Part shown: positions 8,330 through 59,006 of the stretch, piece after piece
Numbering within the stretch: position 1 is the first letter of the stretch
Layout of the letters: each line of letters starts with the position of its first letter
Source: Prinia subflava
Taxonomy: Eukaryota > Chordata > Aves > Passeriformes > Cisticolidae
Assembly (NCBI RefSeq): GCF_021018805.1
Contig: NW_026960608.1
Location: forward strand, 2,046,001-2,110,000
Direction: 5' to 3'
Length of the DNA: 64,000 bases
Made by a program: the position numbers and the translations under genes
Notes under the pieces: generated by a model
The model's input: only the letters and a program-made list of their open reading frames with translations
Told to the model about the DNA's origin: nothing
Database searches by the model: none

Positions 8330-8721
8330 TGTTGGTGGAGGGTTAAAAAATATAATTTCTAAATTGAGCAATGTGTAGAGGGAGGAAAGTAGAGAACGTA
8401 CAACTGGAACTTGACGCAGCTAGCTGGGAACAAGCGTCAGCTTCGGTAAACAGCTCCATGCTATTGTTTTAACCAAATCAAGTGTGGATCAGGGTAGAAG
8501 CGTAGGTATGATTTAAGATAGTAACTAAGGAATAGGATAATCAGTATCTAGGGGTGGGGGTTAGTTAACATGTGTATAATTTAAACTATAAAAATCACGA
8601 ATCGACTCTGTATGCTTTGGACATCAGATTTGGGTGTATTATCACCCCTGTGTCCCGCGCGCTTGAATAAAGAACCGCATATGATCGCCTTCGTGTGGTT
8701 ATATGTTTTCCTACGCTAACA
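8330..8721 (+). repeat. ERV-A 5' LTR (392 bp)
   Basis: It starts TGTTGGTGGAGGG and ends CTACGCTAACA. The TATA box TATAAAAA is at 8587-8594 and AATAAA at 8666-8671, so U3, R and U5 are in normal order. It differs from the 3' copy at about four positions (for example GCTTTGGAC versus GCTTTAGAC). Confidence 0.93.
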
Positions 8722-8725
8722 TTTT

Positions 8726-8743
8726 TGGCGACCCAGGACGGGA
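8726..8743 (+). promoter_or_regulatory. ERV-A primer binding site
   Basis: TGGCGACCCAGGACGGGA begins four bases after the LTR and is identical in ERV-E. It has the TGG start expected for pairing with a tRNA CCA end. I could not match it with confidence to a particular tRNA; an arginine tRNA ending in TCGCCA is only a guess. Confidence 0.7.
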
Positions 8744-8857
8744 CCTTGTGGGCGCAGCCAGGACCCCGCGACCCGATCACGCTCCAGCCGGCACCGGGTG
8801 ATTTCTCGGGGAGCCCATCGGCGCCGCGACCCTCGCCGCTCACAACGACCCCTGGTG

Positions 8858-8868
8858 AGAGGTAAGGT
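8858..8868 (+). promoter_or_regulatory. ERV-A leader splice donor candidate
   Basis: The sequence AGAGGTAAGG has GT at 8862-8863. It sits between primer site and gag, where a gammaretrovirus would have the major splice donor used to make env mRNA. It is inferred from consensus only. Confidence 0.45.
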
Positions 8869-9026
8869 TCTTTATTCTCTGGTCTGGGGGCCTGCCATTA
8901 AGACGCAGCGAAAGCTACGCTTGGTTGGGCAAAAGGAATTCCTGGTGGTATTGCCTAGGCAGCCGTCCGTCAGACATCGCGAAAGCGTTGCAAGTTCGGC
9001 ATCTGTGGTTTTTATGTATCTGTAAT

Positions 9027-10079
9027 ATGGAGAAACTAAAAGGGTTAAAAGAGGTTTTGGGCAGCAATAATGCCTCTATACCAAGTTGATTGAATATTGT
9101 AATGTTCACTGGCCAAAATACGCTTTGCCTGAAAATCAGAGGTGGCCGAAAAATGGGTCTTTTGATGTAAAGGTTATTATGCAACTTAGATTGCTTTGTA
9201 CACAAGATAGAAAGGTAGAACAATTACCATATATTGACTTATTTCTGTGCTTGCTTGAGAAACCAGTTTTGTGGCTTGACAAAATGAAAGCAATGAAGCT
9301 TGAGAATAATAAGTGTCTGGCTTGCGTCCAAAATAAGCATTGTACGGAACATGCAGTTTTAAGTGAAATTTTAGGGGGAAAAAGAGACGAACTGGAATCG
9401 GAATTATTAGTATCTCCCATGGCTCCCGGAACCACCACGGCCCCCTCAACACCAAGTTCTACCCCGCTCACCCTGACCCCACCTGATTCTCTTACACCCC
9501 CCTCGCTCGCGCCAGCACAATATGTTTCACCCCCACCTTTGTCTGCTGAAGGTGATTATCCTCCTCTGCCTGTGCCAGCCGCTCCTCCGCTTGCCCCTCC
9601 TCTGGCTGCTCAGAGAACCCCCCCTTCTCCACATACACCTGCTCAAAGCTATCCTGCTCCCCCGCCCACACCCGCTGAAAGAAAATATACTGATCTTCAA
9701 GTAGACAGTGAGCAAGGAAGAACTCAGCTTGCCTTTATTTTTCTGGGTCAGGCACAGGAAGATATTAGGAAAAAGCTACAGAAACTGGAAGGTGAAGAGT
9801 TAAGAAACTTGGATAAACTCCTAGAGGTTGCCTGGAAAGTTTATAATAACAGGGACAGAGAAATTGTCAAGAAACAGGGGCAAAGCCTTTTGGCAGTTTT
9901 ACAGAGACAGGGGCGGGGACGTGGTAGAGGTGGTCGTGGCGTTAATAGAGGTGGCTTTGGCAGAAGTTCTAGTCATGGTAGATTAGGTCTGAATCAGTGT
10001 GCATATTGTCGGGTGGAGGGACACTGAAAAAGGGAGTGTCCAAACCGGTTTAGCCAGAATGGTCAGCCTCAGTAAGACA
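9027..10079 (+). pseudogene. gag: ERV-A gag (matrix, Pro-rich region, capsid C-terminus, one zinc knuckle)
   Basis: An ATG at 9027 opens a matrix-like region as in ERV-E (MEKLKG...). A 73-bp deletion across an AAGTT direct repeat near 9083-9089 then shifts the frame. From 9086 the frame is open for 313 codons: matrix C-terminal part, a long Pro/Thr/Ser-rich stretch, then abruptly only the last part of capsid (FIFLGQAQEDIRKKL) and an Arg/Gly-rich nucleocapsid with CAYCRVEGH. The next codon, Trp in ERV-E, is TGA here. Most of the capsid domain seen in ERV-D gag is absent, as in ERV-E. A TAA at 10073-10075 separates gag from pol where ERV-E has a Leu codon. It cannot make a working core. Confidence 0.85.
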
Positions 10080-10081
10080 GT

Positions 10082-10594
10082 ATGTTTAATCAAAGTCGTG
10101 AGCATCAGCTAGATGGTGTAGCCAGGGTCATGGTTTTACATGAGAGGGAGCCAGGATCAAGAGAGCCCATAGTGACTTTGCATTTAGAAGGAAAAGACGT
10201 AGATTTTCTCATTGACACGGGGGCCACACATTCTGTACTAAATTATCTTGAGGGGCAAATCGGGAACAAGTCAGCAGCAGTCATTGGAGCCACAGGGAAG
10301 GAAGAGGTACGGCCATTCTTGCAACCCCTAGAATTGAGCTTTGAAGATAAGATCTTGACCCATGAATTCTTATACATGCCAGACTGCCCAACTCCGCTCT
10401 TAGGGCGCGATCTACTGGCAGCACTGGAGGCAGTAATTACTTTTGAGAATGGTGAACTCGTAATGAAAATTCCGGAGTCTAAGACAGGAAAGATTTTGAT
10501 GATAAAAGAAAAACCAATTTCTAATATTCCTAAAGAAGTAGAAGATGCAGTAATTCCCTCTGTCTGAGAAACAGATGTACCTGGAAAATCTAAA
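10082..10594 (+). pseudogene. pol: ERV-A pol: protease region
   Basis: The open stretch 10082-10567 encodes a retroviral aspartic protease. The catalytic motif is LIDTGATHS, with the Asp codon at 10214-10216, and the C-terminal LLGRDLL motif follows. The frame ends in TGA at 10565-10567 where ERV-E reads Trp (TGGG to TGAG). Protease and reverse transcriptase remain in the same frame after that stop, as in gammaretroviral Pol. Confidence 0.85.
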
Positions 10595-11416
10595 TTGGCA
10601 CAACCGGTACATGTAGAGTTAAAAGAAGGAACAAAGGCTGTACGAATCAAACAATACCCTATAAAACCAGAAGCACGACAGGGAATAGCAAAGACCATTG
10701 ATAAATTTTTAAAATATCGAATTCTAGAGGAATGTAAATCGGAATACAACACCCCAATTTTCCCAGTGAAGAAACCCAATGGTGAGTATAGACTTGTACA
10801 GGATTTAAGAGGTATAAATGAAATAACAAAAGACATTCATCCAGTGGTTGCCAATCCCTATACATTGTTAGCATCCGTAAAAGAGATATATAAATAGTTT
10901 ACTGTAATTGACTTAAAAGATGCTTTCTTCTGTATACCCCTTGACCAAGAAAGTAGGAAACTATTTGCCTTTGAGTGGGAACATCCAGAAAGTGGAAGAA
11001 AAACTCAGCTCACCTGGAGTCGATTACCGATGGGGTACAAGGGGTCGCCCACTCTCTTTAGAAGTCAACTGGCAAAAGAACTGGAAATCTGGACCAGAGA
11101 AGGGCAAGTACCAAGAGACCAATATTTATTACTCCAGTATGTAGATGACATTTTGATTACAACAGAGGAAGAAATGACCTGCATAAAGGTAACCATTGAG
11201 ATCTTAAATTCATTAGGAATGGGAGGGTATAAGGTATCCAGAGAAAAAGCACAAATTGCCCAACAGACTGTGATTTACCTGGGATGTGAAATCTCACAAG
11301 GGCAGAGAAAACTGGGTGCTAATCGTATTCAAGCTATCTGTGCTATTCCAGAGCCCCAGAATCTACACGAGCTGCGGATCTTCCTCGGAATGACAGGGTA
11401 GTGTCGCCTGTGGATC
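10595..11416 (+). pseudogene. pol: ERV-A pol: reverse transcriptase
   Basis: Reverse-transcriptase blocks follow in order: PVKKPNGEYRLVQDLR, the VIDLKDAFF block, a LPMGYKGSPTLF block and the YVDD catalytic box at 11138-11149, then the connecting FLGMTG block. Two stops interrupt it, TAG at 10895-10897 and TAG at 11399-11401, both where ERV-E has TGG. Between the stops the sequence is otherwise almost identical to ERV-E, including a stretch of about 125 bp around YVDD with one difference. Confidence 0.88.
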
Positions 11417-12681
11417 ATGGACTATGGACTGATTGCAAAACCCTTGTACGAGGCTCAGAAGACGCAGCCGTTCACCTGGGGCAAACCACAGAAAGAGGCC
11501 TTCCAGAAGTTAAAGGAAGCACTGACAACTGCTCCTGCTTTGGGATTACCTGATCTGTCTAAAGACTTTCAGCTGTACGTGCATGAAAGGCAGCGACTAG
11601 CACTGGGAGTCCTGACCCAACGACTGGGAAACTGGAAAAGGCCGGTGGGTTACTTTTCCAAACAACTCGACAACGTAAGTGCCGGATGGCCTTCATGTCT
11701 GCGGGCAGTGGCAGCTACCGTGCTGCTGATACAGGAAGCCAGGAAGCTCACAATGGGAAGACACATAGATGTCTATGTGCCACACATAGTAACTACAGTC
11801 CTAGAACAAAAAGAGGGCCATTGGCTCTCTCCAAGCCGGATGATGAAGTTTCAAGTAACCCTGACTAAGCAAGATGATGTTGCACTAAAAACAACTAACC
11901 TCTTGAATCCAGCTCTATTTCTAGGTGCCACAGCTGAAGAAAGTCCATTAGAGCATGACTGTCTAGAAGTCATCGAGCACACATATTCAGCAAGGACAGA
12001 TCTGAAGGATGTCCCCCTGGAGCAACCAGAGTGAGAACTCTTTACAGATGGAAGCAGCTTCATGGAGAACAGAGCCAGATACGCAGATATGCGGTAACTA
12101 CAACTGATGTAGTAATAGAGGCAAAATCACTACCACCTAACACGTCTGCACAAAGGGCAGAACTAATCGCATTAACCAGAGCACTCGAGCTGAGTGAAGG
12201 GAAGACAGTAAATATTTGGACTGACTCCAAATATGCCTTCAGAGTAGTGCATGTACACAGAGCTTTATGGAAAGAAAGAGGACTGCTGTCCTCCCAAGGG
12301 ACGAATATTAAACATCAAGATGCAGTCCTACAATTGATAGATGCAGTACAAAAACCTGAACAAGTAGCAATCATGCACTGCAAGGCACATCAATCAGGCA
12401 ACTCCAAAATTTGTGAAGAAAATCAAAAAGCAGATTGGGCAGCCCGTCAGGTAGCACGAGAGGTGCAGAAAACAATGGCATTGATACCATCAAGACTTAA
12501 TATCTCTCAATTTAATTTGCCTACGAAGCCAAACTATACAATCGAAGATGACAGACTAGCACAACTGCTGAAGGCACAGAAGAACGCAGAAAGGTGGTAT
12601 GTAACCGCACAAGGGCAAATAGTAGTACCTCCTTTGGTAATGAGAGAAATTTTACAGGTAAAACATAATGAGTGTCACTAG
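11417..12681 (+). pseudogene. pol: ERV-A pol: connection and RNase H
   Basis: 11417-12034 is the thumb/connection and 12031-12681 the RNase H region (FTDGSS start, IWTDSKYAF box, ending in a tether toward integrase). TGA at 12032-12034 replaces Trp, and a lost G near 12082 shifts the frame. The TAG at 12679-12681 is shared with ERV-E, so it predates the split of the two copies. Confidence 0.82.
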
Positions 12682-13675
12682 GGTGCAGAGGCGTTAGTAA
12701 AGTGGCTAAGACAATACCTAATCTCAGTACAGATGCAAACAATGGCCAAGTCAGTAATGTCTAAATGTGAAATCTGTCTGAAAAACAATCCCGTAGCTAG
12801 ACGACAAGCACAGTTAGGCAGAATTCAGATAGGAATAGAACCAGGAGACTATTAGCAAGTAGATTTTGCAGAACTGCCAAAAACTCGGGGATACAAATAC
12901 CTGTTAGTAAGAGTTGACACGTTTTCTAGATGGCCAGAAGCCCTTCCCTGTCGCACAAACCAAGCAAAGGAAACAGTTAAGTAGTTATTACACGAGATCA
13001 TTCCCAGGTTTAGAGTGCCCCTAGAGATATCATCAGACAGAGGCCCACACTTCATAGCCACGGTGGTACAAGAGGTAAGCAAGTTATTGGGAATATCTTG
13101 GGACCTCCACACACCATGGAGACCCCAGTCAAGTAAGCAAGTAGAAAAAATGAACCAGACACTGAAGAGGCAGATCAGTAAAATATGCCAGGAAGCCAAA
13201 CTGCAGTGGCCACAGGCTTTGCCGATCGCATTGCTGAGAGTTCAGATAAAGCCTAAGAGTGAGATGTCAGTTAGTCCTTATGAAATATTTTATGGGAAAC
13301 CATATGAATCTCCTAACCCCAATCCAAATGTTCATGTCACAGGGAAACAAGATGTGTATAATTATGTTCTGTCCCTCGGAAAACTCTAGCTCAGCTTCGA
13401 AGTGTTCTCGTGTAGAACAGACCACTGGCCCTGGAGAATCCAGTCCACAATATCGAACCAGGAGATGAAGTATACATCAAAACCTAGAACGAAAAACCAC
13501 TAAAAGAGAAGTGGACTGGTCCCCATCAGGTACTGCTAACCACCTTTACAGCAGTCAAAGTGGCTAGAGTAGAACCCTAGATACACTACACGCGTGTGAA
13601 GAAGGTCCCTCGTAGAGTCCAGTCGTGGGCTGTAGAAACTTTTAGACCAACAAAGCTGAAGCTGAAACTTCTGTA
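12682..13675 (+). pseudogene. pol: ERV-A pol: integrase
   Basis: Integrase zinc-binding Cys residues (CEICLKNN), the first catalytic Asp in DFAELP, the second in SSDRGPHF and the Glu of the third box can be placed. Stops (for example TAG in the GDY-Q and TVK-LL positions and near IKT) break the frame. Over about 235 bp (12820-13050) I counted ten G-to-A changes relative to ERV-E, all at GpG, against two other substitutions. Confidence 0.83.
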
Positions 13676-13684
13676 ACTGTTCAA

Positions 13685-15426
13685 ATGGTATTAGTAACTG
13701 TGCTCATGCTCTTCCTGTGGGTAATGTTAATTTCATAGATACTAATGTCACCTGTAGAGATTGCTGTTACTTTAGGATATGAGATACAGAAGGGTCAACT
13801 AACAACTCTTCATTCTAGAATGAAGAGAGAGATACAGGCAAAAACACAAGTAATAGAAATTTCTAATGAAATTCGGGCTGAGAATGTAATGATTAGATTA
13901 GTCAGAGACTTTGCCAAAATGCATAATACCAGCAGAATAACGGCCTGTCTGCCAATACCAAAGGCAGCAGGAGACCCAGTAAGCTGGGGAATAATGTCAA
14001 AATTACCTGAAATAGGAGAGAACAAAACAATTAACTGTAAACAAGTACCAGAGTCAAGGGTGGTGGTCAGAGAATACTAGAAAATAACAGAAGATTCTTA
14101 TATGCAACCCATGAGAAAGTCAGAGTGCATTCTTAGTAATAGCAAATTGAGACAAATCATAGAGTAGTGGGTTAAAGACCAAGACCTTGCAAAATAGCAA
14201 TGTTGGTTTCTACGCTGTCAAAAGATCAAGGACAACGCTACAGAAAGTGTTGTGGTGTAGAAATGTGAAGAGAAAGATTAGAAAAGACTAGAACCTTAAG
14301 ACAGTGCATAGTCTGTGAGCATCCTCCAGAAATTCCAATATATAGAAAGCACACCCTGGTGCATTAAATGGAAAGGCTCTGAAAATGAGACAGATCCCAC
14401 AGTGACGAATACTGATACTAGTAGTCAGAAAGAGGCAAATAAAGTAAGTTAGTGAGTATGTAAGAAAATTTATGATTGCACCTCTGATAATCTAGAAATG
14501 AAACAGTGGTCACCATTGGCAATAGCCTTACGAATTAGTTGTGCCTGCAAGAAAATTAAACACAAACAAGGCAAAATAGATTCTAAGATTATAGTAAGAT
14601 GTAGCAAGAGTACAATTCGAAGTCCAGGACCATTTGTATGAGCAATGAGTGATAGCACATAGACAACACACTTGCCTATAGACGGGAAAGTAAGAGAAAT
14701 CACCCTGGGCCTTCCCACTTTATGTCCAATTTGGAAGAAATCCCCATTTAACAGGAGCAGTGAAGCCTTGCAAATAAAAGCAAAGCGAGACGTCTCAGAA
14801 GACAAGAACCCAGATGACACTTAGAAGGAACCCTCTAGTAGAGTAAAGATTGGGTAGGCCCTAGAATCCTTGTTTGGTCCCATTACAAATTATCGAAATA
14901 GAAAAATGCTATATAGACTCACAGGTCAAGTAGACAGATTAGCAAGAATCACACGAGAGAGATTTAAAGAACTCAATGTGCAATTACAAGCCACCACCAA
15001 AATGACCCTGCAAAATCGTTTAGCTTTAAATATGTTACTTTTGAAAGAACACAGAGTGTGTAGATATTTAAAGAGACAAATCAACCATTGCTGCATCCAC
15101 ATCCCAAATGTAACTGCAGATGTAGAACATGACATCAGTCAGTTAAAACAAATAGAGCATGAGGCACAAAAGGAACAAAAGGATTTAGCTACTAGCTAGT
15201 TAGGTAAAATCTTTGAAAGATTAAGATAGAATGTGAGTGCATAGATAAAGTCTATCCTTGAAAATCTGATAATTTTACTGATTATATTTTTAGTGATTTG
15301 GTCAGTTTACAGAATCCTGAAGAGAGAGATACAGAAAAAAGCATCTTAGAACAAAACCATAATGAAGGCATTAGCACAGAACCCAGCACCTTCAATCCGC
15401 AACAACATCCCGGACAAAGCCTATGA
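13685..15426 (+). pseudogene. env: ERV-A env
   Basis: ATG at 13685 opens a hydrophobic signal-peptide-like start equivalent to the ERV-E env start at 45834. The surface part is open at 13745-14080, then many TAG/TAA codons follow. The transmembrane subunit is open at 14870-15199 with the conserved LQNRLAL block and a Cys...CysCys motif spaced by nine residues. Stops lie where ERV-E has Trp in the membrane-proximal part. A hydrophobic anchor near 15265-15310 and a short tail finish the gene. It cannot produce envelope. Confidence 0.85.
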
Positions 15427-15526
15427 CAACAGAAGATTTAAAGATGAACATCCAGTATGAACTCTGAAGCCTAATAGACTGTATTAAGTGAAAGCATTTA
15501 CACTTAGTATATTAGAGTGAAAATAC

Positions 15527-15541
15527 TTTCAAAGGGAGGAA
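15527..15541 (+). promoter_or_regulatory. ERV-A polypurine tract
   Basis: The purine run AAAGGGAGGAA directly precedes the 3' LTR, where plus-strand DNA synthesis starts. ERV-E has the same site with an all-G centre. Confidence 0.8.
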
Positions 15542-15933
15542 TGTTGGTGGAGGGTTAAAAAATATAATTTCTAAATTGAGCAATGTGTAGAGGGAGGAAA
15601 GTAGAGAACGTACAACTGGAACTTGACGCAGCTAGCTGGGAACAAGCGTCAGCTTCGGTAAACAGCTCCATGCTATTGTTTTAACCAAATCAAGTGTGGA
15701 TCAGGGTAGAAGCGTAGGTATGATTTAAGATAGTAACTAAGGAATAGGATAATCAGTATCTAGGGGTGGGGGTTAGTTAACATGTGTATAATTTAAACTA
15801 TAAAAATCACGAATCGACTCTGTATGCTTTAGACATCAGATTTGGGTGTATTATCACCCCTGTGTCCCGCACGCTTGAATAAAGAACCGCATATGATCGC
15901 CTCTGTGTGGTTATATGTTTTCCTACGCTAACA
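15542..15933 (+). repeat. ERV-A 3' LTR (392 bp)
   Basis: Same length and ends as the 5' copy, with about four differences, including one GG-to-AG and one in a CpG. It is followed directly by the right target duplication AAGG. Confidence 0.93.
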
Positions 15934-43576: not shown

Positions 43577-43973
43577 TGTTAGCGTAGGAAAACATATAAC
43601 CACACAGAGGCGATCATATGCGGTTCTTTATTCCAGCGCGCGGGACACCGGGGTGATAATACACCCAAATCTGATGTCCGAAGGATACAGAGTTGATTCA
43701 TGATTTTTATAGTTTAAATTATACACATGTTAACTAACCCCCACCCCTAGATACTGATTATCCTATTCCTTAGTTACTATCTTAAATCATACCTACGCTT
43801 CTACCCTGATCCACACTTGATTTGGTTAAAACAATAGCATGGAGCTGTTTACAAAAGCTGACGCTTGTTCCCAGCTAGCTGCGTCAAGTTCCAGTTGTAC
43901 GTTCTCTACTTTCCTCCCCCTGCACATTACTCAATCTAGAAATTACATTTTTTTTTTTAACCCTCCACCAACA
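43577..43973 (-). repeat. ERV-E 3' LTR (397 bp)
   Basis: Minus-strand TGTTGGTGGAGGG start and CTACGCTAACA end, with TATAAAAATC and AATAAAG as in ERV-A. It reads identical to the 5' copy, including an 11-base T-run. A purine tract (CAAAGGGGGGAA on the minus strand) adjoins at 43974-43987. Confidence 0.93.
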
Positions 43974-44088
43974 TTCCCCCCTTTGAAAGTATTTTCACTC
44001 TAATATACTAAGTGTAAATGCTTTCACTTAATACAGTCCATTAGGCTTCAGAGTTCATACTGGATGTTCATCTCCAAATCCTCTGTTG

Positions 44089-45834
44089 TCATAGGCTTTG
44101 TCCGGGATGTGGTTGCGGATTGAAGGTGCTGGGTTCCGTGCCAATGCCTTCATTATGGTCCTGTTCCAAGATGCCTTTTTCTGTATCTCTCTCTTCAGGA
44201 TTCTGTAAACTAACCAAATTACTAAAAAATATAATCAGTAAAATTATCAGATTTTCAAGGATAGACTTTATCCATGAACTCACATTCCATCCTAATCCTT
44301 CAAAGATTTTACCCAACCAGCTAGTAGCTAAATCTTTTTGTTCTTTTTGTGCCTCATGCTCTATTTGTTTTAACTGACTGATGTCATGTTCTACATCTGC
44401 AGTTACATTTGGGATGTGGATGCAGCAATGGTCGATTTGTCCCTTTAAATATCCACACACTCCGTGTTCTTTCAAAAGTAACATATCTAAAGCCAAACGA
44501 TTTTGCAGGGTCATTTTGGTGGTGGCCTGTAATTGCACATTGAGTTCCTTAAATCCCTCTCGTGTGATTTTTGCTAATCTGTCTACCTGACCTGTGAGTC
44601 TATATAGCATTTCTTTATTTCGATAATTTGCAATGGGACCAAACAAGGATTCTAGGGCCCACCCAATCTTTACTCCACTAGAGGGTTCCTTCTAAGTGTC
44701 ATCTGGGTTCTTGTCTTCTGAGACGTCTCGCTTTGCTTTTATTTGCAAGGCTTCACTGCTCCTGTTAAATGGGGATTTCTTCCAAATTGGACATAAAGTG
44801 GGAAGGCCCAGGGTGATTTCTCTTACCTCCCCGTCCATAGGCAAGTGTGTTGTCCATGTGCCATCACTCATTGCCCATACAAATGGTCCTGGACTTCGAA
44901 TTGTACTCCTGCTACATCTTACTATAATCTTAGAATCTATTTTGCTTTGTTTGTGTTTAATTTTCCTGCAGGCACAACCAATTCGTAAGGCTATTGCCAA
45001 TGGTGACCACTGTTTCATTTCTAGATTGTCAGAGGTGCAATCATAAATTTTCTTACATACTCACCAACTTACCTTATTTGCCTCTTTCTGACTGCTAGTA
45101 TCAGTATTTGTCACTGTGGGATCTGTCTCATTTTCGGAGCCTTTCCATTTAATGCACCAGGGTGTGCTTTCCATATATTGGAATTTCTGGAGGATGCTCA
45201 CAGACCATGCACGGTCCCAAGGTTCCAGTCCTTTCCAATCCTTCTCTTCACATTTCCACACTACAACACTTTCTGTAGCGTTGTCCCTGATCTTTTGATA
45301 GCGTAGAAACCAACATTGCCATTTTGCAAGGTCTTGGTCCTTAACCCACCACTCTATGATTTGTCCCAATTTGCCAATTCTAAGAATGCACTCTGACTTT
45401 CTCATGGGTTGCATATAGGAATCCTCTGTTATCTTCCAGTATTCTCTGACCACCACCCTTGACTCTGGTACTTGTTTACAGTTAATTGTTTTGTTCCCTC
45501 CTATTTCAGGTAATTTTGATGTTATTATTCCCCAGCTTACTGGGTCCCCTGCTGCCTTTGGTATTGGCAGGCAGGCCGTTATTCTGCTGGTATTATGCAT
45601 TTTGGCAAAGTCTCTGACCAATCCAATCATTACATTCTCAGCCCGAATTTCATTAGAAATTTCTATTACTTGTGTTTTTGCCTGTATCTCTCTCTTCATT
45701 CTAGAATGAAGAGTTGTTAGTTGACCCTTCTGTATCCCATATCCCAAAGTAACAGCAATCCCTACTGGTGACATTAGTATCCATGAAATTAACATTACCC
45801 ACAGGAAGAGCATGAGCACAGTTACCAATACCAT
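44089..45834 (-). pseudogene. env: ERV-E env with two in-frame stops
   Basis: ATG at 45834 overlaps the integrase end and starts a strongly hydrophobic signal peptide. The frame runs unbroken in phase to TGA at 44089-44091 apart from TGA at 45061-45063 and TAG at 44692-44694. Both stops also occur in ERV-A. The surface subunit has many Trp and Cys residues; a KAKR furin-type site precedes the transmembrane part. That part has the LQNRLAL block, then Cys-X9-CysCys rather than the usual X6, a heptad-like helix and an Ile/Leu-rich membrane anchor. About 581 codons in all, a normal envelope length. Confidence 0.82.
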
Positions 45835-45842
45835 TTGAACAG

Positions 45843-46046
45843 TTACAGACGTTTCAGCCTCAGCTTTGTTGGTCCAAAAGTTTCTACAGCCCACGACTGG
45901 ACTCCACGAGGGACCTTCTTCACACGCGTGTAGTGTATCCAGGGTTCCACTCCAGCCACTTTGACTGCTGTAAAGGTGGTTAGCAGTACCTGATGGGGAC
46001 CAGTCCACTTCTCTTTTAGTGGTTCTTCGTTCCAGGTTTTGATGTA
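45843..46046 (-). pseudogene. pol: ERV-E integrase, C-terminal part beyond ERV-F
   Basis: This encodes the SH3-like end of integrase (EKWTGPHQVLLTTFTAVK, then HYTRVKKVP), matching the same part of ERV-A. It is separated from the main body at 54168 by the ERV-F insertion; GATGTA at 46041-46046 is one copy of the target duplication. Confidence 0.88.
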
Positions 46047-46446
46047 TGTGGCCGAGTTTCTCAGGTATCGTGGGCATGATATGCTCACAGATACCATTTG
46101 AGCTATTCCAGACTAGGCCAAACTAGGCCTCAGGCCTGGGCCTAGTAGGCCGCGGAACGTTCCGAGTACGTAGTAGCAGATAACCTTATCTCCTACTAGG
46201 TATGTGTTAAGGTATGGCCACTCGCAGCATGGAGGTAATGGCACTAGATCTCCGTAGCCACCTTAATCCTAGATTGCTTACATACTTCTGTATGCTCACT
46301 GCCTATCACAATGCACCTGCTACTGTAAACTATCTGCTCTGTACTTAACCGGCCATCTCGCGGAATAAAGCGGAGTTCGTGCTGGAAACCATACTGGTTT
46401 GGTCTCACGTTACTCTAGTCCCCAGTCTTTCCAGGGTTCGACAACA
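46047..46446 (+). repeat. ERV-F 5' LTR (400 bp)
   Basis: Starts TGTGGCCGAG, ends TTCGACAACA. GGAATAAAGCGG near 46361 gives the polyadenylation signal. It differs from the 3' copy at two sites: GCCGCGG versus GCCGTGG (a CpG) and TTTGGTC versus TTTTGTC. Confidence 0.93.
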
Positions 46447-46447
46447 G

Positions 46448-46465
46448 TGGCGCCCGAAACTTAGA
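46448..46465 (+). promoter_or_regulatory. ERV-F primer binding site
   Basis: TGGCGCCCGAAACTTAGA starts one base after the LTR. The first 11-12 bases agree with the lysine-tRNA (type 3) site; the rest does not. Confidence 0.75.
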
Positions 46466-46708
46466 GACAGAGCCCTGGATTTTATTGAAATATCAGGCTT
46501 CGATGCTGTGTGATATTTGGCTTCAATGCTGTGGATTATTTGGCTTTAATGCTGTGTATGATTTAGCTTAAATGCTGGAAGTCCTCGCTTGATTTCGGAC
46601 GTGTGTGTGTCGCTTGCGATCTACAGTCCGGAATTCCGAGGCAGGCTGGGGAGCGTCGGCTGATTGGTTTGATTAGAAGGCGACAGTGCCACCTGCTGTC
46701 CGTGGAAA

Positions 46709-46719
46709 GAAGGTAAGAG
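46709..46719 (+). promoter_or_regulatory. ERV-F major splice donor candidate
   Basis: GAAGGTAAGAG, with GT at 46713-46714, lies in the leader 18 bases before the gag ATG. It would supply the 5' exon of env mRNA. Consensus match only. Confidence 0.55.
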
Positions 46720-46730
46720 CAGCGGCGCGG

Positions 46731-48959
46731 ATGGATTCACTCACGGAACGCGACTATATAGCTGCCACGCAGCTATTAGCGTCCATTGTCTCGAAACGGG
46801 GCGAAAAGATCAGAGATTCTGATATAAATCAGCTGGCCCAATGGGCTAAAAAGAAAGGAAAGTTACAGCAGCCCTCGCTTTTGTTTAGCGAGACAGAATG
46901 GAAGGAGATCGGAGATTTACTTTGGGACTCGGTAGTTTCACAGGGAAAAGACGCAAAACTCTGTTCGGAGTTAGGCGTCACGTGGAAGAAAATTATAAAT
47001 ACGCTACAAACCTTTGCCGCGGAGCGCAGAGCTGCCCAAGCCGCGATTTCCGCATTGGAGAGAACGGCCCCTTGCTCTCCTGAACCGGAGACCGTTCCTT
47101 CCCAAGCGGAAGAGCGGAAAAAAGTATCCAGAGTTGCGAGATTTTTCGGAATTAATTCCACGCATCCGGTGAAAGGGAATGCGGCCCCCCTCTGTTCCTC
47201 CCTCCGTGACGTGGTAGACGTAGCCAGCCATGCGGTTGAGAGACCGAGCGAGAGGCCGGAAGTGTCCTTGCCGCGGTTCGGCGAGAAAGGCGTGGGGGAG
47301 GAGACGAGCCAGCCGCCAGACCCGAGGGGCGTGGCGAAAGAGGAGGCAGGCGGGACCGGCAGCGGCGCAGGGCGGGCACAAGTGACGCAGCAAGGAGGCG
47401 GACTCGGAGGCGGTGCCACCGGCGGAGCGGAGCCAAACCCCTCCCCACCGGAACGGGAGCTGACGTCAGCTGCCCACATGACAAAAACAAAAACAGAGAA
47501 CATGGCGGCGCCCATGGCCGGATCGGACAACGCGAGTTCGATTCAACCTGAGATCCCTGCGCCCCCACAGCCTGCATCAGTGGGACCCGCCACCCATCCA
47601 CAGGCGTCTCACTGTCCTCTGCCAGAATCTGACTCGGACGAGGAAGTTTTGGAATCGGATAACAGCTGTGCAACGCAAGCGCCGGAAAAGCCGCAGAGGT
47701 CAACGGAGCTGCAGCAAATTATAGCAGAGCTTGCTAAGCTCTCTAACCGGCAAAGTCAACTGGAACAAAAGACATTTGAATTATCCAAAACATTCCCACA
47801 GAAACCATGTACCATACAACCTCTGTCATCATTACAGAGCCAGCAGGCGTTGCCATCCAATGCCCAGCAGATGGCGCTGCCTGCCAACCAAACTGATCCG
47901 CTGCTGAACCGCTGGGCCGAAGTTAAAAAACATGCCATCCTTGATAAGGACTTTGAAGCAGCCAATGTTATAGCGTGTCCTGTGGTGATTGAGCAGAACG
48001 TTGCCAGATGGCAACCGCATGAATGGAAGGTACTGCAATCTGCAAAGCAGACAGTTAGTCAGTATGGAATTCGTGCGGAAGCTTCCAAAAGTATTATCCA
48101 ATACATCTTCACTGCTGACCTCTTGTGCCCTGCTGACAGTTCTAACATTGCAGCACTTCTGCTCACGCCATCTCAGTTTCTCATTTTTGAAAGAGAGTGG
48201 AGACGCCTGGCAACCGAGGAAGCCAACAGGCATCAAATAGTGGGAGATCCATTTTATGGGATTCAGCCGGACATGCTGACGGGCCAAGGAGCCTATGCCA
48301 CGACGAATGTACAGCTGACTTTTCCCATCGAAATCCATCAACTCTCCCAGTCACTAGCCTACAGAGCTTTGCTGTTGGTGCCAGACAAAAAGAAGCCTCC
48401 ATCCTATGCCAACGTCAAACAGGGAGCCACCGAATCGTTTGCTCAATTTATAGATCGTCTTTCTACGGCATTGAGAGATGCCCCAGATTTGCCTGACGAG
48501 GTGCGAGACCACCTGTTTCGTTCTCTTGCATTTGAGAACGCCAGCGCACGCATGAAAACCATCTTGGCCTCCCTCCCTCAAGGCTGTGGCGTGGACGAAA
48601 TGTTGGTGAGAGCAGCGAGAGCAGAACAGTCCAACCAAACAGCAGCTTTCACAGCGGCAATGCAAAACGCAATGCAGCAACAGGGACATGTTATCGCAGC
48701 TGCATTGACGGGAAAGCCCTTTAATCGTTTTACTAATAACAAAAAATCAGCGGCAAAGTCCCAGTGCAACCGCTGTGGTGAAATGGGTCATTTCAGGCGG
48801 ACCTGCCAAAAGCCTGTTTGGTGTCACCACTGCAATGTGGACACCCATGCCACAGAGATCTGCAGGAAACAGGGAAACTTCACGGCCAGCGCGCCGAGGC
48901 AGCGCGCCAAGACACAAATCAATGCCTCAGCCCACCAGACCCCAAACAAGACTCATTGA
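46731..48959 (+). CDS. gag: ERV-F Gag polyprotein (742 aa, intact)
   Basis: ATG 46731 is chosen over an upstream GTG because it follows the leader and starts a matrix-like sequence (MDSLTERDY). There is no N-terminal MG, so no myristoylation signal. A GC-rich Pro/Gly/Glu segment spans about residues 110-340. Capsid follows, with the major homology region at about 562-581 (QGATESFAQFIDRL). Two CCHC zinc knuckles lie at 679-692 (CNRCGEMGHFRRTC) and 698-711 (CHHC...C). Two knuckles and the -1 overlap with pro are class II traits. The frame is open to TGA at 48957-48959. Gag would form the particle core. Its large size partly reflects the Pro-rich region. Confidence 0.9.
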   Translation: MDSLTERDYIAATQLLASIVSKRGEKIRDSDINQLAQWAKKKGKLQQPSLLFSETEWKEIGDLLWDSVVSQGKDAKLCSELGVTWKKIINTLQTFAAERRAAQAAISALERTAPCSPEPETVPSQAEERKKVSRVARFFGINSTHPVKGNAAPLCSSLRDVVDVASHAVERPSERPEVSLPRFGEKGVGEETSQPPDPRGVAKEEAGGTGSGAGRAQVTQQGGGLGGGATGGAEPNPSPPERELTSAAHMTKTKTENMAAPMAGSDNASSIQPEIPAPPQPASVGPATHPQASHCPLPESDSDEEVLESDNSCATQAPEKPQRSTELQQIIAELAKLSNRQSQLEQKTFELSKTFPQKPCTIQPLSSLQSQQALPSNAQQMALPANQTDPLLNRWAEVKKHAILDKDFEAANVIACPVVIEQNVARWQPHEWKVLQSAKQTVSQYGIRAEASKSIIQYIFTADLLCPADSSNIAALLLTPSQFLIFEREWRRLATEEANRHQIVGDPFYGIQPDMLTGQGAYATTNVQLTFPIEIHQLSQSLAYRALLLVPDKKKPPSYANVKQGATESFAQFIDRLSTALRDAPDLPDEVRDHLFRSLAFENASARMKTILASLPQGCGVDEMLVRAARAEQSNQTAAFTAAMQNAMQQQGHVIAAALTGKPFNRFTNNKKSAAKSQCNRCGEMGHFRRTCQKPVWCHHCNVDTHATEICRKQGNFTASAPRQRAKTQINASAHQTPNKTH

Positions 48960-49708
48960 ACCAGACCAGACCTGCTGCGTGGAGAAGTGTTGGTGTGGAC
49001 ATAACAGCAGCAGAAGAAGTCACCTTGCAAGATAAGGAAGTCACTCTGATCCCGACTGATGTCTCTGAACCCATCTATAATACAGTTTCCTCAGCTGGAG
49101 GTTTGATATTAGGAGGAGCCTCCACGAGCAAACAGGGTATTATGGTGGTGCCAGGAGTCATCAATGCTAATTACACTGGACAGTTAAAAGTAATGGTTTA
49201 TGCCCTGCAGCCTCCTGTGACAATCCCAAAGGGGAGCAAGATTGCTCAGATCATCCCCTTTGAGAACATCCTGCCACGTCGTCAGTCCCAAAAGCAGCCT
49301 GCGGAAGCCGAAGGCGGAGCTGAGAGCTTTGGCTCTATGGGACACAGTGTTTTCCTTACAGTGGATTTACACGAGCGGCCACGGATTGCAGTGAAACTGC
49401 AACGAGGCGATGAAATTATCGGCATCGAACCACTTCCAGACACCGGCGCAGACATATCTTTAATTAACAAATTACATTGGCCTTCTCATTGGCCTTTGAC
49501 ATCCCCCTATACCCGCGTTGTGGGTGTAGGAGGCCTGACTGTTCCCTCAATAAGTGCAGATCCTATTCGGATCATCTTTGAAGATGGACAAGTGGTTGTG
49601 GCTCATCTATATGTTGTGCCAATGCATGAAGAGATTCTGGGGCTGCTAGGAAGAGATGTGCTTTCCCAAATAGGGATGGTTTTGACTACTGACCGGCATT
49701 TTCCTTAG
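48818..49708 (+). CDS. pro: ERV-F Pro: dUTPase-like domain plus aspartic protease
   Basis: The frame is -1 to gag and is entered by slippage at 48872, so the first part of the listed interval overlaps gag. After the junction comes a dUTPase-like fold (VGVDITAAE, then VVPGVINANYTGQ and IPKGSKIAQIIPF), as in betaretroviral Pro. The protease follows with catalytic DTGADISLI and C-terminal LLGRDVLSQIG. A G-patch is not obvious. Stop TAG at 49706-49708. The catalytic residues are present; dUTPase activity cannot be judged because not all five motifs are clear. Confidence 0.85.
   Translation: MVSPLQCGHPCHRDLQETGKLHGQRAEAARQDTNQCLSPPDPKQDSLNQTRPAAWRSVGVDITAAEEVTLQDKEVTLIPTDVSEPIYNTVSSAGGLILGGASTSKQGIMVVPGVINANYTGQLKVMVYALQPPVTIPKGSKIAQIIPFENILPRRQSQKQPAEAEGGAESFGSMGHSVFLTVDLHERPRIAVKLQRGDEIIGIEPLPDTGADISLINKLHWPSHWPLTSPYTRVVGVGGLTVPSISADPIRIIFEDGQVVVAHLYVVPMHEEILGLLGRDVLSQIGMVLTTDRHFP
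48872..48878 (+). promoter_or_regulatory. Gag-pro -1 frameshift site GGGAAAC
   Basis: GGGAAAC stands in the correct phase (G GGA AAC, coding for Gly-Asn in gag) within the gag/pro overlap. Slippage by one base enters the pro frame, which is open here. This heptamer is an established gag-pro slip site in type D betaretroviruses. GC-rich inverted segments follow within 20-40 bases and could form the stimulatory structure. Confidence 0.8.
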
Positions 49709-52401
49709 TGGCCACTGCAGAGCAGCCACCCATTTTAAAAATCACCTGGTTAACTGATACCCCTGTGTGGGTTGAGCAGTGGCCAATGACAGAGAAGAGG
49801 CTGCGAATTACCAAGCAATTGGTGCAGGAACAATTAGAAGCAGGTCACATTCGACCCTCAGTGAGTCCATGGAACACACCGATTTTTGTCATCCCTAAAA
49901 AATCAGGGAAATGGAGACTGCTACATGACCTTCGTAAGGTTAATGAGCAGATGCAAGCGATGGGTGCTCTGCAACCAGGCTTGCCAGCACCGACCATGAT
50001 TCCTCAAGGGTGGGACATTGTCATCATCGATTTGAAGGACTGTTTTTTCACGATCCCACTCCATCCTCAAGATACTCAGCGCTTTGCCTTCACTGTGCCA
50101 TCTATTAACAGAGCAGCGCCAGCACATCGGTATGAATGGGTAACTCTTCCTCAGGGAAGTCGTACCTCGCCTACCATGTGCCAGATATTCGTCAATTGGG
50201 CTTTGCAGCCGATTCGTCAGCGTTTTTCCAATGCAATGATTTATCACTACGTCGATGACATCCTTGTTGCTACTAAGGAGCCTCTGCCCACAGAGGACTT
50301 GGACTGGCTGATCACGCAATTAAAACATCGTGGTCTGACTGTGGCCCCGGAAAAAATACAACGATCAGCCCCGTGGAAGTACTTAGGATGGCTGATCACG
50401 AGTGCACAAGTCCGGCCACAGAAAATTACTTTACATACAAACATTTCAACGTTATATGATGCTCAGAGACTTTTTGGAGACCTGCAATGGGTTCGTCCCA
50501 TTGTAGGAATCACCAATGAGGACTTGCAACCGTTTCTACCATGGCTACACGGTAATGATGCCAGTAGCCTTCGACAATGTACCCCTGAACAGCAACGAGC
50601 CTAAGTCAAGGTGTCAGAGAAGCTGCAACGGGGTTGGAGCATTCGCCGCATAGAACACCTGCCACTGTCACTGTTCCTCTCCAACGCAGATGTCTGTCCG
50701 TTTGCCATCATCTTTCAATGGCAAAAGAAAAAGGGGGAACACCAGTCTGGGTTAAAATCGACAGCTGGGGTGATTGAATGGGTGTTCTTGCCGGTGCAGC
50801 CGAAGAGTCGTGTTATGACAAGAACAGAAGCCCTTGCCATGCTCATCAGAAAAGGGAGAGATAGGATTTTAGAGATCGATGGGGCAGAACCGGCAGATAT
50901 CAGTGTTCCGATCAGAAATGAAGATCTGGACTGGAAACTGAGACATTCTGTGGAGCTGCAAGAAGCATTGTTGGGTTTTACAGGTGTGGTTCACAACCGA
51001 CAGCCAAAAGGTCCGATGTGGACTCTGATTGCACGCCATCAGTGGCTGGAGAAGCCTTTGTGTTCCATGACACCTGTGGACGGCAGAACAGTTTATACGG
51101 ATGCCGGCCGAAAGACACAAAGAGCTGTGTGTGTGTGGAAACAGCAAGGAGAATGGAAGCAGCATTTAATCCACAGTGAAGCCGGAGACAGCTTGCAGAC
51201 CATGGAGCTGGGAGCAGTGTGTTGGGCTTTGCAAACCTGGAATAAGGAACCTCTTAATGTGGTGTCAGATTCTTTGTATGTGGTTGGAGTGGTACAAAGA
51301 ATCGAAGATGCACTCATTAAGACCACTCAGAATCAGCGCCTCGGAGAACTATTTCTGCGACTGAGGAGCATACTCAAACAGCGTCAGCATGCCTTTTGCG
51401 TGATGCACATTCGTAGTCATCAGTGCAACAATGGTTTGGGAGAAGGCAATGCACGGGCAGATGCTGCAGTCAGTTGCGTTGCCCATGTCCCTCCTGAAAG
51501 CAAATTTGTCAGAGCTCGCAACAGCCACGAGAACTTCCATCAGAATGCTAGAGCTTTGCGTCGTCAATTTCAAATATCTATGAACGATGCACAGGGGATT
51601 GTGCGTGCCTGCCCTCAATGCAGTCATCACGGGCCAGGTCTTGGCCTAGGCACGAATCCTCGAGGAATGAAAGCCCTGGAACTGTGGCAAATGGATGTAA
51701 CACACATCCCAGAGTTTGGAAGGTTGAAATATGTTCATGTCACTATTGACACCTACTCCAAATTCATTTGGGCCACAGCACAGACTGGGGAAAGAGCTCT
51801 GCACGTTGAGAGACATTTGACTGTTTGCTTTTCAGTGATGGGAGTGCCTGCAGAAATCAAAACTGACAATGGTCCAGCTTATGTGGGACAACGAGTTGCT
51901 AGGTTTCTGCAAAAGTGGGGAGTCAAACATACTACCGGGATTCCTCACTCTCCTACTGGCCAAGCCATTGTGGAACGGGCTCATCGGACGCTGAAAGAGT
52001 ATCTCGCAAAGCAGAAGCAAAATAATGACCTAGATGTGACCAATCGTTTATCTAAAGTACTGTTCACTTTAAATTACTTATGCCTAGCAGAAGGGCGAGA
52101 AGAGCCTGCAGTTGTCATCCACCACCAGGCTGTGAAAGAAGGGAGACCACAAGCAATTCCAGGACTTTACGTATATCATAAGGACATGCGAACGGGTGAA
52201 TGGCAGGGACCCAGTCCAGTCTTGTTTAATGGTCGCGGTTATATGTGTGTTTCTGCAGGAGAAGCAGGACCTGTCTGGGTGCCGAGTCGCTTTACCCGTG
52301 CGTGTCCACAAGAAAAGATACCAACCGGCGGTGACACTCACAGAGACAGCGACGACTTACCTGAAGCACCTCAAGAAGACGCGGAGAGTGCTGAAAATTG
52401 A
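49693..52401 (+). pseudogene. pol: ERV-F Pol (RT, RNase H, integrase) with one in-frame TAA
   Basis: The frame is -1 to pro and open from 49693, so it overlaps pro by about 16 bases. Reverse-transcriptase blocks include IPKKSGKWRLLHDLR, VIIDLKDCFF, LPQGSRTSPT and YVDD (50248-50259). TAA at 50602-50604 is the only break; the same phase continues from 50605. RNase H has VYTDAG, METELGA-like and SDSLYVV segments. Integrase has the HHCC finger (HENFH ... CPQCSHHG), Asp in LWQMDVTH, Asp in KTDNGPAY and Glu in AIVERAHRTLK. The end at 52401 leaves a normal-length integrase tail. A single nonsense change separates it from an open frame, so it is counted as defective. Confidence 0.88.
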
Positions 52402-52514
52402 CTGTTTTAATACTATATCATTGCACTGTTGTTGTGTGACACTTAGAGGCACGATAAGTTATTGGTTAGGGTTTTAGGTTGATAGCCTGTGTGCTACACT
52501 GTGTGCTTGTCACA

Positions 52515-53822
52515 ATGGGTGAAATGTTAAGCATGAGGGTGTTGGTTTTAATCAGTGTGGTAGTAAAAATAAGAGCAGGGATGTTTGACATTGACACAAG
52601 GGAGAACATGTGGGTTACTTGGGCCAAACAAACTAAACAGGATTCCTTTTGTTTATCTCTAGCGACGCCATCCAATCCTTTTAGAACCTGCTTGATTGGA
52701 GTTCCACTGACCTCCATGGCAGAGTTCAAGTCTTTAACCCCTGTCAGGATTGACCCAAAAGGTGATTTAGGGCCACAAGCTGCTGCCATAGCGCGAAACC
52801 TTCGAGCGGCTGGTCCAGAACCTCAGGAGCTTGATCTTTTAGGTTCTGTGCCAGGAAACTATTGTCTTGTCTTTGGGCGCTTTGCAGTGAATTCTAGTCT
52901 ATTAATCATAGATGAGCAGCAATTGAAAGGCCACGCTACGTGGCTGTCCCCTCATTCACTTTTGTATTACAATTACTCTGAGTATTGTAATAGTTGGGTC
53001 AGATCTGTCACGCAATTGACAACAGCTGCTAAGAGATTGCCACCAGGAATCTTTTTAGTTTGCGGAGATAGAGCATGGTCCACAGTACCTCCAAACAGTG
53101 TCGGAGGACCGTGTTATTTTGGCAAACTAACTCTGTTCGCACCTAGTATTCACCAGGTTCTAGGCTTGCCAAAGAAGGCTCAACGAGTCAAGCGCAGTAT
53201 GTCTCAACTAGGTCCCAACTGCAAAGATCAAGTTACCCTATGGCAGCCTCCAGCCGTGATCTCAGCATCCATTTTTGCCCCAGGAGTTGCTTCAGCACAA
53301 GCCCTCACACAACTGAAACATTTAGCCTGCTGGACAGGAAAACAGATTAACATAACGACGAAGTTGTTGAGTGAGCTTGCTGAAGATGTTAGTGGCATTC
53401 GCCATTCAGTGCTCCAGAACCGAGCCGCGATTGACTTCCTTCTTTTGGCTCAGGGGCATGGATGCGAAGAGTTTGAAGGCATGTGCTGCATGAATTTATC
53501 AGACCACTCACGATCGATACATCAGCAGTTAGCGCAGTTCAGGGACAACATGAAACATCTTGTAGTTGAGAACACTCCGTTTGACACTTGGCTGAAGTCT
53601 TGGAATCTCACCGGGTGGATTGTAGATTTAGTTCGTTTTGGTATAATGATCCTTATTGCTGTCATAGTAGTTTTGACAATAGTGCCTTGCTTGATACAAT
53701 GCATGCGCAAATTAGCTGACCGTGCCTTAACGTCAGTTTGGATAGCCCAAAAAGAAAAAGGGGGAACTGTGGCCGAGTTTCTCAGGTATCGTGGGCATGA
53801 TATGCTCACAGATACCATTTGA
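52515..53822 (+). CDS. env: ERV-F Env (435 aa, intact frame), alpharetrovirus-like
   Basis: ATG 52515 is preferred to the upstream TTG; it starts a hydrophobic signal peptide. The surface subunit is short, Cys-rich and has N-glycosylation sites such as NSS and NYS. A furin-type RVKR site lies near residue 230. The transmembrane subunit has LQNRAAIDFLL and a Cys-X6-CysCys motif (CEEFEGMCC), very like avian alpharetroviral TM, then a 25-residue hydrophobic anchor (GIMILIAVIVVLTIV) and a tail. The last 18 codons run into the 3' LTR, with TGA at 53820-53822. It is open throughout. Pairing with a betaretrovirus-like pol suggests an env swap in its ancestry. Confidence 0.87.
   Translation: MGEMLSMRVLVLISVVVKIRAGMFDIDTRENMWVTWAKQTKQDSFCLSLATPSNPFRTCLIGVPLTSMAEFKSLTPVRIDPKGDLGPQAAAIARNLRAAGPEPQELDLLGSVPGNYCLVFGRFAVNSSLLIIDEQQLKGHATWLSPHSLLYYNYSEYCNSWVRSVTQLTTAAKRLPPGIFLVCGDRAWSTVPPNSVGGPCYFGKLTLFAPSIHQVLGLPKKAQRVKRSMSQLGPNCKDQVTLWQPPAVISASIFAPGVASAQALTQLKHLACWTGKQINITTKLLSELAEDVSGIRHSVLQNRAAIDFLLLAQGHGCEEFEGMCCMNLSDHSRSIHQQLAQFRDNMKHLVVENTPFDTWLKSWNLTGWIVDLVRFGIMILIAVIVVLTIVPCLIQCMRKLADRALTSVWIAQKEKGGTVAEFLRYRGHDMLTDTI
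53748..53767 (+). promoter_or_regulatory. ERV-F polypurine tract
   Basis: AAAAAGAAAAAGGGGGAA lies directly before the 3' LTR and inside the env frame. Confidence 0.85.
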
Positions 53823-54167
53823 GCTATTCCAGACTAGGCCAAACTAGGCCTCAGGCCTGGGCCTAGTAGGCCGTGGAACGTTCCGAGTACGTAGTAGCAG
53901 ATAACCTTATCTCCTACTAGGTATGTGTTAAGGTATGGCCACTCGCAGCATGGAGGTAATGGCACTAGATCTCCGTAGCCACCTTAATCCTAGATTGCTT
54001 ACATACTTCTGTATGCTCACTGCCTATCACAATGCACCTGCTACTGTAAACTATCTGCTCTGTACTTAACCGGCCATCTCGCGGAATAAAGCGGAGTTCG
54101 TGCTGGAAACCATACTGGTTTTGTCTCACGTTACTCTAGTCCCCAGTCTTTCCAGGGTTCGACAACA
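53768..54167 (+). repeat. ERV-F 3' LTR (400 bp)
   Basis: Same ends as the 5' copy and about two differences. GATGTA follows at 54168. Confidence 0.93.
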
Positions 54168-54953
54168 GATGTATACCTCATCTCCTGGTTCGATATTGTG
54201 GACTGGATTCTCCAGGGCCAGTGGTCTGTTCCACACGAGAACACTTCGGAGCCGAGCTAGAGTTTTCCCGAGGGACAGAACATAATTATACACATCTTGT
54301 TTCCCTGTGACATGAACATTTGGATTGGGGTTAGGAGATTCATATGGTTTCCCATACAATATTTCATAAGGACTAACTGACATCTCACTCTTAGGCTTTA
54401 TCCGAACTCTCAGCAATGCGATCGGCAAAGCCTGTGGCCACTGCAGTTTGGCTTCCTGGCATATTTTACTGATCTGCCTCTTCAGTGTCTGGTTCATTCT
54501 TTCTACTTGCCCACTTGACTGGGGTCTCCATGGTGTGTGGAGGTCCCAAGATAATCCCAATAACTTGCTTACCTCTTGTACCACCGTGGCTATGAAGTGT
54601 GGGCCTCTGTCTGATGATATCCCTAGGGGCACCCCAAACCTGGGAATGATCTCCTGTAATAACCACTTAACTGTTTCCTTTGCTTGGTTTGTGCGACAGG
54701 GAAGGGCTTCTGGCCATCCAGAAAACGTGTCAACCCCTACTAACAGGTATTTGTATCCCCGAGTTTTTGGCAGTTCTGCAAAATCCACTTGCCAATAGTC
54801 TCCTGGTTCTATTCTTATCCGAATTCTGCCTAACTGTGCCTGTTGTCTAGCTACGGGATTGTTTTTCAGACAGATTTCACATTTAGACATTACTGACTTG
54901 GCCATTGTTTGCATCCGTACTGAGATTAGGTATTGTCTTAACCACTTTACCAA
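54168..54953 (-). pseudogene. pol: ERV-E integrase, main part
   Basis: The open frame starts near 54953 and covers the zinc finger Cys pair (CEICLKNN), Asp in QVDFAELP, Asp in SSDRGPHF and Glu in SGQVERMN, all present. It is cut at 54168 by ERV-F within the C-terminal domain (GDEVY). Many positions that are stops in ERV-A are Trp or Gly here. Confidence 0.88.
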
Positions 54954-54965
54954 CGCCTCTGCACC

Positions 54966-58988: not shown

Positions 58989-59006
58989 TCCCGTCCTGGG
59001 TCGCCA
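58989..59006 (-). promoter_or_regulatory. ERV-E primer binding site
   Basis: On the minus strand the same 18 bases as in ERV-A, four bases after the LTR. Confidence 0.7.

Follow-up and report, generated by a model that had tools for sequence, protein, structure and literature searches.

How did a provirus in a songbird genome come to carry so many adenines where its sister carries guanines, and why are most of these positions followed by another guanine? The question is raised by ERV-A, a gammaretrovirus-like (ERV1) endogenous retrovirus (ERV) that lies in a 64-kb stretch (hereafter the window) of one contig of the 1.12-Gb genome of Prinia subflava, a cisticolid songbird. The element occupies positions 8330..15933 of the plus strand, where an earlier note made from the letters of the window had correctly placed it. 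Its long terminal repeats (LTRs; 8330-8721 and 15542-15933) measure 392 bp each and have TG...CA ends, and the 4-bp repeat AAGG found at both flanks indicates that the two LTRs derive from one insertion. We propose that, during reverse transcription, a host enzyme of AID/APOBEC type with a preference for CC almost certainly deaminated the minus-strand complementary DNA (cDNA) of ERV-A.

ERV-A was aligned piecewise to its sister ERV-E, which is located on the minus strand and interrupted by a further element, ERV-F. The 244 substitutions are made up of 147 G>A, 19 C>T, 30 A>G, 19 T>C and 29 transversions. The G>A changes depend strongly on the following base (GG 119/525, GA 19/592, GC 6/343, GT 3/404), with a rate of 0.227 at GG vs 0.007-0.032 at other G, so that the GpG excess reported in the earlier note holds in the full alignment (119/525 vs 28/1339; odds ratio 13.7, Fisher test, p = 4.7e-44). 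The mirrored C>T contexts show no such dependence, all of them lying at 0.7-1.8%. The hand count of that note (35 G>A, 33 of them before G, and 11 differences of other kinds) had the direction right but overstated the purity of the signal, as 81% of all the G>A changes are at GG and there are 97 other differences. Two marks of APOBEC-type hypermutation, an excess of plus-strand G>A and a dependence on the neighbouring base, are present in ERV-A. The note had also observed that Trp codons were turned into stops. Within the open frames of ERV-E, and excluding gapped or unaligned codons, this is the case for 23 of the 51 Trp codons, out of 24 new stops in total: 0/7 in gag, 4/8 in the protease-reverse transcriptase frame, 1/6 in RNase H, 3/8 in the integrase, and 12/19 and 3/3, respectively, on the surface and transmembrane sides of env.

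The direction of these changes was studied with seven other loci of the family (L002-L008), after dropping the sites covered by fewer than 4 copies. Among 73 testable GG>AG sites, 57 have the G of ERV-E in all covering copies, 16 are mixed and none has all copies matching ERV-A. The A residues of ERV-A are derived and do not represent the family state, and G is ancestral, as the earlier note had held. A wider set was obtained from a first genome query, which scored 40 of 324 candidates including ERV-A and ERV-E; 20 of the 38 others were taken at length, making a set of 22 copies. The changes unique to ERV-A among these 22, counted over the 6853 columns in which 12 or more copies are present, are 71 G>A (53 GG, 14 GA and 4 GC/GT), 1 C>T, 6 A>G, 1 T>C and 6 transversions. 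With C>T far from equal to G>A, none of the three outcomes that the earlier note had named as refuting it is seen. These counts also bear on the possibility that the pattern accumulated slowly after integration, through CpG decay or a genome-wide G:C>A:T bias. Changes of the CpG type do exist, since 8 of the 19 C>T between ERV-A and ERV-E are at CpG. Nevertheless, slow mutation would hit both strands, which contradicts the 71 private G>A vs 1 C>T, and CpG decay is excluded, in agreement with the earlier note, by the G residues preceded by C and not followed by G, which changed at only 3/109 sites. Moreover, the LTR pair differs at just 4/392 sites, and slow mutation predicts no rise toward the polypurine tract such as the one described below. 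We thus give this explanation practically no credence.

The distribution of the edits along the provirus is uneven, as can be seen from its main parts:

8330..15933, plus strand: ERV-A as a whole, hypermutated G>A at GG, on the evidence of the alignment to ERV-E, the LTRs and the AAGG repeat
8330..8721, plus strand: 5' LTR, almost unedited (1/31 GG)
8722..11199, plus strand: leader, gag and start of pol, with low editing (GG 12/169, composed of 1/43 + 9/70 + 2/56)
11200..15541, plus strand: pol to env, where GG editing climbs from 13/72 to 19/29 in the final 0.54 kb
15542..15933, plus strand: 3' LTR, where editing falls to 2/31 GG (p = 2.8e-7 vs the last 1.5 kb)

After the 5' LTR and the leader, the successive kilobases have 9/70, 2/56, 13/72, 19/67 and 27/71 GG sites edited, followed by 26/50 (14200-14999) and 19/29 (15000-15541). 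The edited GG sites are shifted toward the 3' end relative to the unedited ones (p = 4.1e-18), and the effect of position stays significant when context is included in the model (p = 1.2e-14). The drop at the 3' LTR was evaluated as 2/33, a count including two GG sites just beyond the LTR, vs 52/93 in the last 1.5 kb. Non-GG G>A changes stay at 1.1-4.5% along the element, with little rise. This gradient follows the same order as the time that the minus strand remains single-stranded when a retrovirus has a single polypurine tract, which is what would be expected if the minus-strand cDNA was deaminated before plus-strand synthesis; we infer the cDNA stage as the time of editing. The deamination of C to U would have taken place in the round of reverse transcription that gave the ERV-A insertion, plus-strand synthesis would have made the uracils permanent as G>A changes of the coding strand, and integration of this damaged copy in the germline would have followed. 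Exposure time would set the dose, the cDNA just upstream of the polypurine tract being the longest single-stranded and the most edited and the 5' end the least, and the LTR would be little edited because plus-strand strong-stop DNA covers it early. A twin-gradient idea is discussed for human immunodeficiency virus type 1 (HIV-1), with exceptions, in one study (PMC3310730).

Editing extends to the other members of the family, a comparison that the earlier note had suggested: when polarity is assigned by at least 75% G, the GG excess is significant after Bonferroni correction in 11 of the 22 copies. These include ERV-E, which is lightly edited (GG 20/469 vs other G 7/1193, its 3' LTR lying outside the count). 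A second query, made with the edited env stretch of ERV-A, scored 40 of 251 candidates; it added 32 short stretches, the remaining rows being 7 already in the set and ERV-A itself. Once L020 was dropped because of its too few aligned columns, a set of 53 copies was available for the 3' env segment. In this segment 19/53 copies pass the GG-excess threshold of 0.05/53 and 15/53 have 0/55 GG edited. The heaviest copies, L042 (28/54), L040 (27/54) and L056 (27/55), all three known from this segment only, are comparable to ERV-A (28/55); the dose is unequal copy by copy, from 0/55 to 28/54. The 52 copies other than ERV-A have, when pooled, 350/2852 changes at GG, 99/8112 at other G and 35/8840 C>T.

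Several scenarios may explain why many ERV-A edits recur in other copies. One possibility is that ERV-A comes from an already edited subfamily that was copied, so that its edits were inherited. A test with coarser strata on eight copies could be taken in this sense, as 4/28 pairs exceed the expectation at p<0.05, including ERV-A/L037 (27 common sites vs 20.4, p = 0.022), but this mild excess is read here as due to hotspots missed by the strata. When the expectation uses shared site propensities, only 5/153 pairs of edited copies (18 of the 19 significant ones, L053 being omitted) overlap at p<0.05 and 1 at p<0.01, and none of the 153 shares nearly all edits. ERV-A itself has 13-18 sites in common with the five heaviest others, where 12.4-16.8 are expected (for instance 18 vs 16.8 with L042 and 16 vs 16.7 with L056). 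The stops introduced into pol and env also argue against inheritance, and we regard an edited ancestor of ERV-A as highly improbable. The sister copies were edited independently at common hotspots, as separate rounds of reverse transcription in one lineage, each reaching a very different degree of editing, would produce. When G/A differences are set aside, any two of eight copies compared in the 3' env segment are 2-7 changes apart, which suggests, on this sequence comparison, a recent burst of the family.

The preferred target can be studied both in ERV-A and in the 18 copies. In a model of ERV-A that includes position, base -1 (p = 0.0013, T best) and base +2 (p = 1.1e-5, A best and G worst) have an effect, base +3 has a weak one (p = 0.03) and base -2 none (p = 0.68). 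In the 18 copies, the TGG sites are edited in the order TGGA 86/162, TGGT 24/54, TGGC 17/54 and TGGG 20/90. AGGG (3/54) and GGGG (2/64) are poor sites, although both are partly confounded by the protected G runs of the polypurine tract, which the segment contains because it reaches as far as the 3' LTR. The rule that columns should have 70% G removed 7/62 GG columns, at least 2 of them TGGA sites, so the hot sites are understated if anything. The preferred cDNA site is TCCA (TGGA on the plus strand), and the activity is CC-specific and departs from the APOBEC3G pattern: the GG target (cDNA CC) is found, but the preference for TGGG within TGG is not.

This preference helps to weigh two other explanations. 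Reverse-transcriptase error under skewed nucleotide pools, with no enzyme involved, has been proposed as a route to retroviral G>A hypermutation and would likewise be one-sided. Yet we know of no reason for skewed pools to produce the LTR drop or the rise toward the polypurine tract, and GG odds of 13.7 with TGGA best and GGGG worst resemble the preference of an enzyme instead, which makes the pools a most improbable cause. The second explanation is that the cDNA was edited by AID and not by an APOBEC1-like enzyme. The genome does contain an AID gene, and AID is of the same family as the APOBEC1-like proteins, but AID is known to prefer WRC, whose complement GYW was changed at 5/406 sites vs 136/1347 of the remaining G. 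The sites typical of AID were hardly changed and AID is, as the earlier note had argued, a poor fit that we consider very unlikely. Deamination of CC on the minus-strand cDNA, the mechanism proposed in that note, is supported by the observed context, strand bias, gradient in ERV-A and independent editing of its sisters.

Nevertheless, some observations weigh against the cDNA scenario as told for ERV-A. A 3' rise is seen at p<0.05 in 6 of the 11 significantly edited copies (ERV-A 5.9e-16, L037 0.0002, L031 0.0009, L022 0.0033, L027 0.0046 and L024 0.0135), of which ERV-A, L037, L031 and L022 remain after Bonferroni correction over 11. The other five show no rise (ERV-E 0.14, L021 0.79, L026 0.45, L032 0.99 and L036 0.68), and L026 also stands apart from ERV-A by its unusually edited 5' LTR (5/31 GG). 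Not all edited copies share the gradient; with 9-31 internal edits each, these five may have had a dose too low to reveal it, or some of their edits may have another history. The LTR edits of ERV-A, with 1 GG site common to both LTRs and 1 in the 3' LTR only, are too few to judge sharing between the LTRs. Finally, the second query used the edited stretch of ERV-A itself and so favours edited copies.

Which enzyme could have been responsible? The whole Prinia genome was searched with PF08210 as sole family model, and the six exon matches were grouped by location into four genes:

C3, 20.407 Mb: APOBEC1-like gene 1, to which the Prinia record gives the name C->U-editing enzyme APOBEC-1-like
C3, 20.419 Mb: APOBEC1-like gene 2, best solved match human APOBEC1
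C3, 20.430 Mb: AID (L018), best solved match AID (E = 3.2e-53)
C23: APOBEC2

The products of both APOBEC1-like genes have human APOBEC1 as best solved match. The overlapping Pfam models do not settle whether either gene belongs to the APOBEC1 branch: gene 1 is best matched by SNAD4 (118 bits), with APOBEC1 fourth (95 bits), and gene 2 by APOBEC4_like (146.0 bits), with APOBEC1 second (144.0). The product of gene 1 is 51-66% identical to 20 relatives, which are bird proteins where named. It is predicted to have the AID/APOBEC fold (mean predicted local distance difference test, pLDDT, 86), the best PDB matches of the predicted model being APOBEC3H, APOBEC3F and AID, with human APOBEC1 at rank 16. 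All rows of a 28-row alignment share its HxE and PCxxC residues, which bind zinc and serve catalysis, and differ in the stretch that follows strand 4 of the catalytic core and that we take to be loop 7. Loop 7 has a role in target preference, and HMMER aligns the 'yaddgk' of gene 1 to 'yddkg'/'yddqg' in the second domain of two APOBEC3G chains. An acidic loop 7 as the explanation of the CC preference can only be retained as a lead, as the proteins of other birds vary there. Between the two genes, L016:9193-9459 has a weak tblastn match (30% identity) to a shorebird APOBEC1-like protein and is possibly a third, decayed copy.

The two APOBEC1-like genes are the likeliest source of the editing, although this is unproven, and we would attribute it with moderate confidence to one of the two proteins that they encode near AID. 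In favour of this, the APOBEC1 of a lizard mutates DNA and has an inhibitory effect on retroelements (PMC3880073). Two considerations temper the attribution: it is based on gene presence, annotation and family, and a search limited to PF08210 may have missed APOBEC4 or a diverged gene. Alternatively, the mechanism could be right and the enzyme another of AID/APOBEC type: APOBEC4, a diverged protein, one missing from the assembly, or one belonging to an earlier host from which the virus later passed into this lineage. The use of one family model, the presumed character of the CC preference of bird APOBEC1 and the fact that Pfam ranks APOBEC1 first for neither gene all speak for this alternative, which competes with the enzyme step only. 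Yet the six exon matches resolve to four genes, and the fact that copies were edited independently so many times within one genome speaks for a resident enzyme; we see another enzyme as a real, if less probable, option than the APOBEC1-like proteins. The earlier note could name no CC-preferring germline deaminase in birds; the genome holds, as candidates, two APOBEC1-like genes beside AID.

The neighbours of ERV-A in the window provide the context of the comparison:

43577..46040, minus strand: env side and 3' LTR of ERV-E, the less-edited sister used as comparison sequence
46047..54168, plus strand: ERV-F, of alpha/beta type, nested in ERV-E and outside the edited family
54169..59407, minus strand: 5' LTR, gag and pol side of ERV-E, lightly edited

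ERV-E thus extends over 43577-59407 and is split by ERV-F. Its pieces contain Gag_MA, RVP, RVT_1, RNase_H, rve and TLV_coat (Pfam), and those of ERV-F Gag_p24 and Avian_gp85. The top solved-structure matches of the ERV-E reverse transcriptase (RT) are RT/RNase H p80 chains, presumably of the Moloney murine leukemia virus (MMLV) or xenotropic MLV-related virus (XMRV) type, followed by a named MMLV RT. ERV-E, inside which ERV-F was inserted, has identical LTRs and a flanking CTGG repeat. Retroviral gag/pol fragments flank ERV-E on its own strand (41668-43248 and 59318-61297), which suggests that ERV-E is itself inside an older ERV, i.e. a three-deep nest. ERV-F has long open frames and LTRs that differ at 2/401 sites. 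A further LTR element (17586-22060) has 425-bp LTRs with 4 differences between them and an internal frame of 387 aa without Pfam match. The pol piece of ERV-E had no match in the viral contig collection, and its 5 pattern matches in the genome contig collection included no relative. The window contains no tRNA and no Rfam match at the gathering threshold.

The process itself is already known. According to papers that cite it, Knisbacher and Levanon 2016 described how LTR elements of birds undergo G>A editing, to the highest degree in the zebra finch and other oscines (PMC6523648, PMC6497032, PMC12548423), and songbirds were reported as the vertebrates with the strongest LTR editing (PMC6523648, PMC6497032). 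The earlier note had also mentioned that genome surveys report such editing in birds. Since, moreover, APOBEC1-like genes are present, the biology is less unexpected than that note held. Like ERV-A, the songbird ERVs are hypermutated G>A, and the zebra finch elements listed carry more edits (392 G>A of 475 and 353 of 440 mismatches; PMC12548423). ERV-A differs in coming from the Cisticolidae and in offering the anatomy of a single provirus, with its rise toward the polypurine tract and TCCA preference. No statement of a GG or TCCA motif in birds was found in the literature surveyed, in which the 2016 survey is represented by its citing papers. ERV-A is a well-resolved new case, adding a species, provirus-level anatomy and, with reservation as to the motif content of that survey, the TCCA preference, which like the candidate genes is a lead. 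One bird genome with sister proviruses edited to very different degrees provides a readable record behind a survey statistic. No infection is needed to measure from it the target preference of the enzyme, the way in which its action depends on exposure time, and when host and virus were in contest.

Other known systems resemble ERV-A in part. One is Mtv61, an endogenous provirus of the mouse mammary tumor virus (MMTV), which we take to be a betaretrovirus. Its editing falls sharply in the 5' half, but it was edited by mouse APOBEC3 and its authors describe the gradient as unlike that of APOBEC3G in HIV-1 (PMC12548423). Lizard and opossum APOBEC1 act as DNA mutators against retroelements outside eutherians (PMC3880073, PMC5399452), a family to which the bird candidates are linked by annotation or resemblance; the bird case differs in being known from a genomic footprint and gene presence. 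There is also a likeness to human APOBEC3G on HIV-1, which produces GG>AG on the plus strand with TGG favoured and GGGG poor, edits less just downstream of polypurine tracts and shows a discrete, 'all or nothing' dose from one copy to another (PMC3909203, PMC3310730). APOBEC3G, however, favours TGGG (PMC3909203), here the poorest TGG site (20/90, as opposed to 86/162 for TGGA), and no mammals but eutherians, nor other animals, have APOBEC3 genes (PMC5399452). It is about an even call whether songbirds, without APOBEC3, evolved independently, out of a fast-changing APOBEC1-like gene close to AID, a deaminase of cDNA that is CC-specific and antiretroviral. If so, songbirds would possess a functional counterpart of APOBEC3G with a TCCA preference of its own, and if a songbird APOBEC1-like protein deaminates TCC(A), birds would have reached an APOBEC3G-like defence via another gene.

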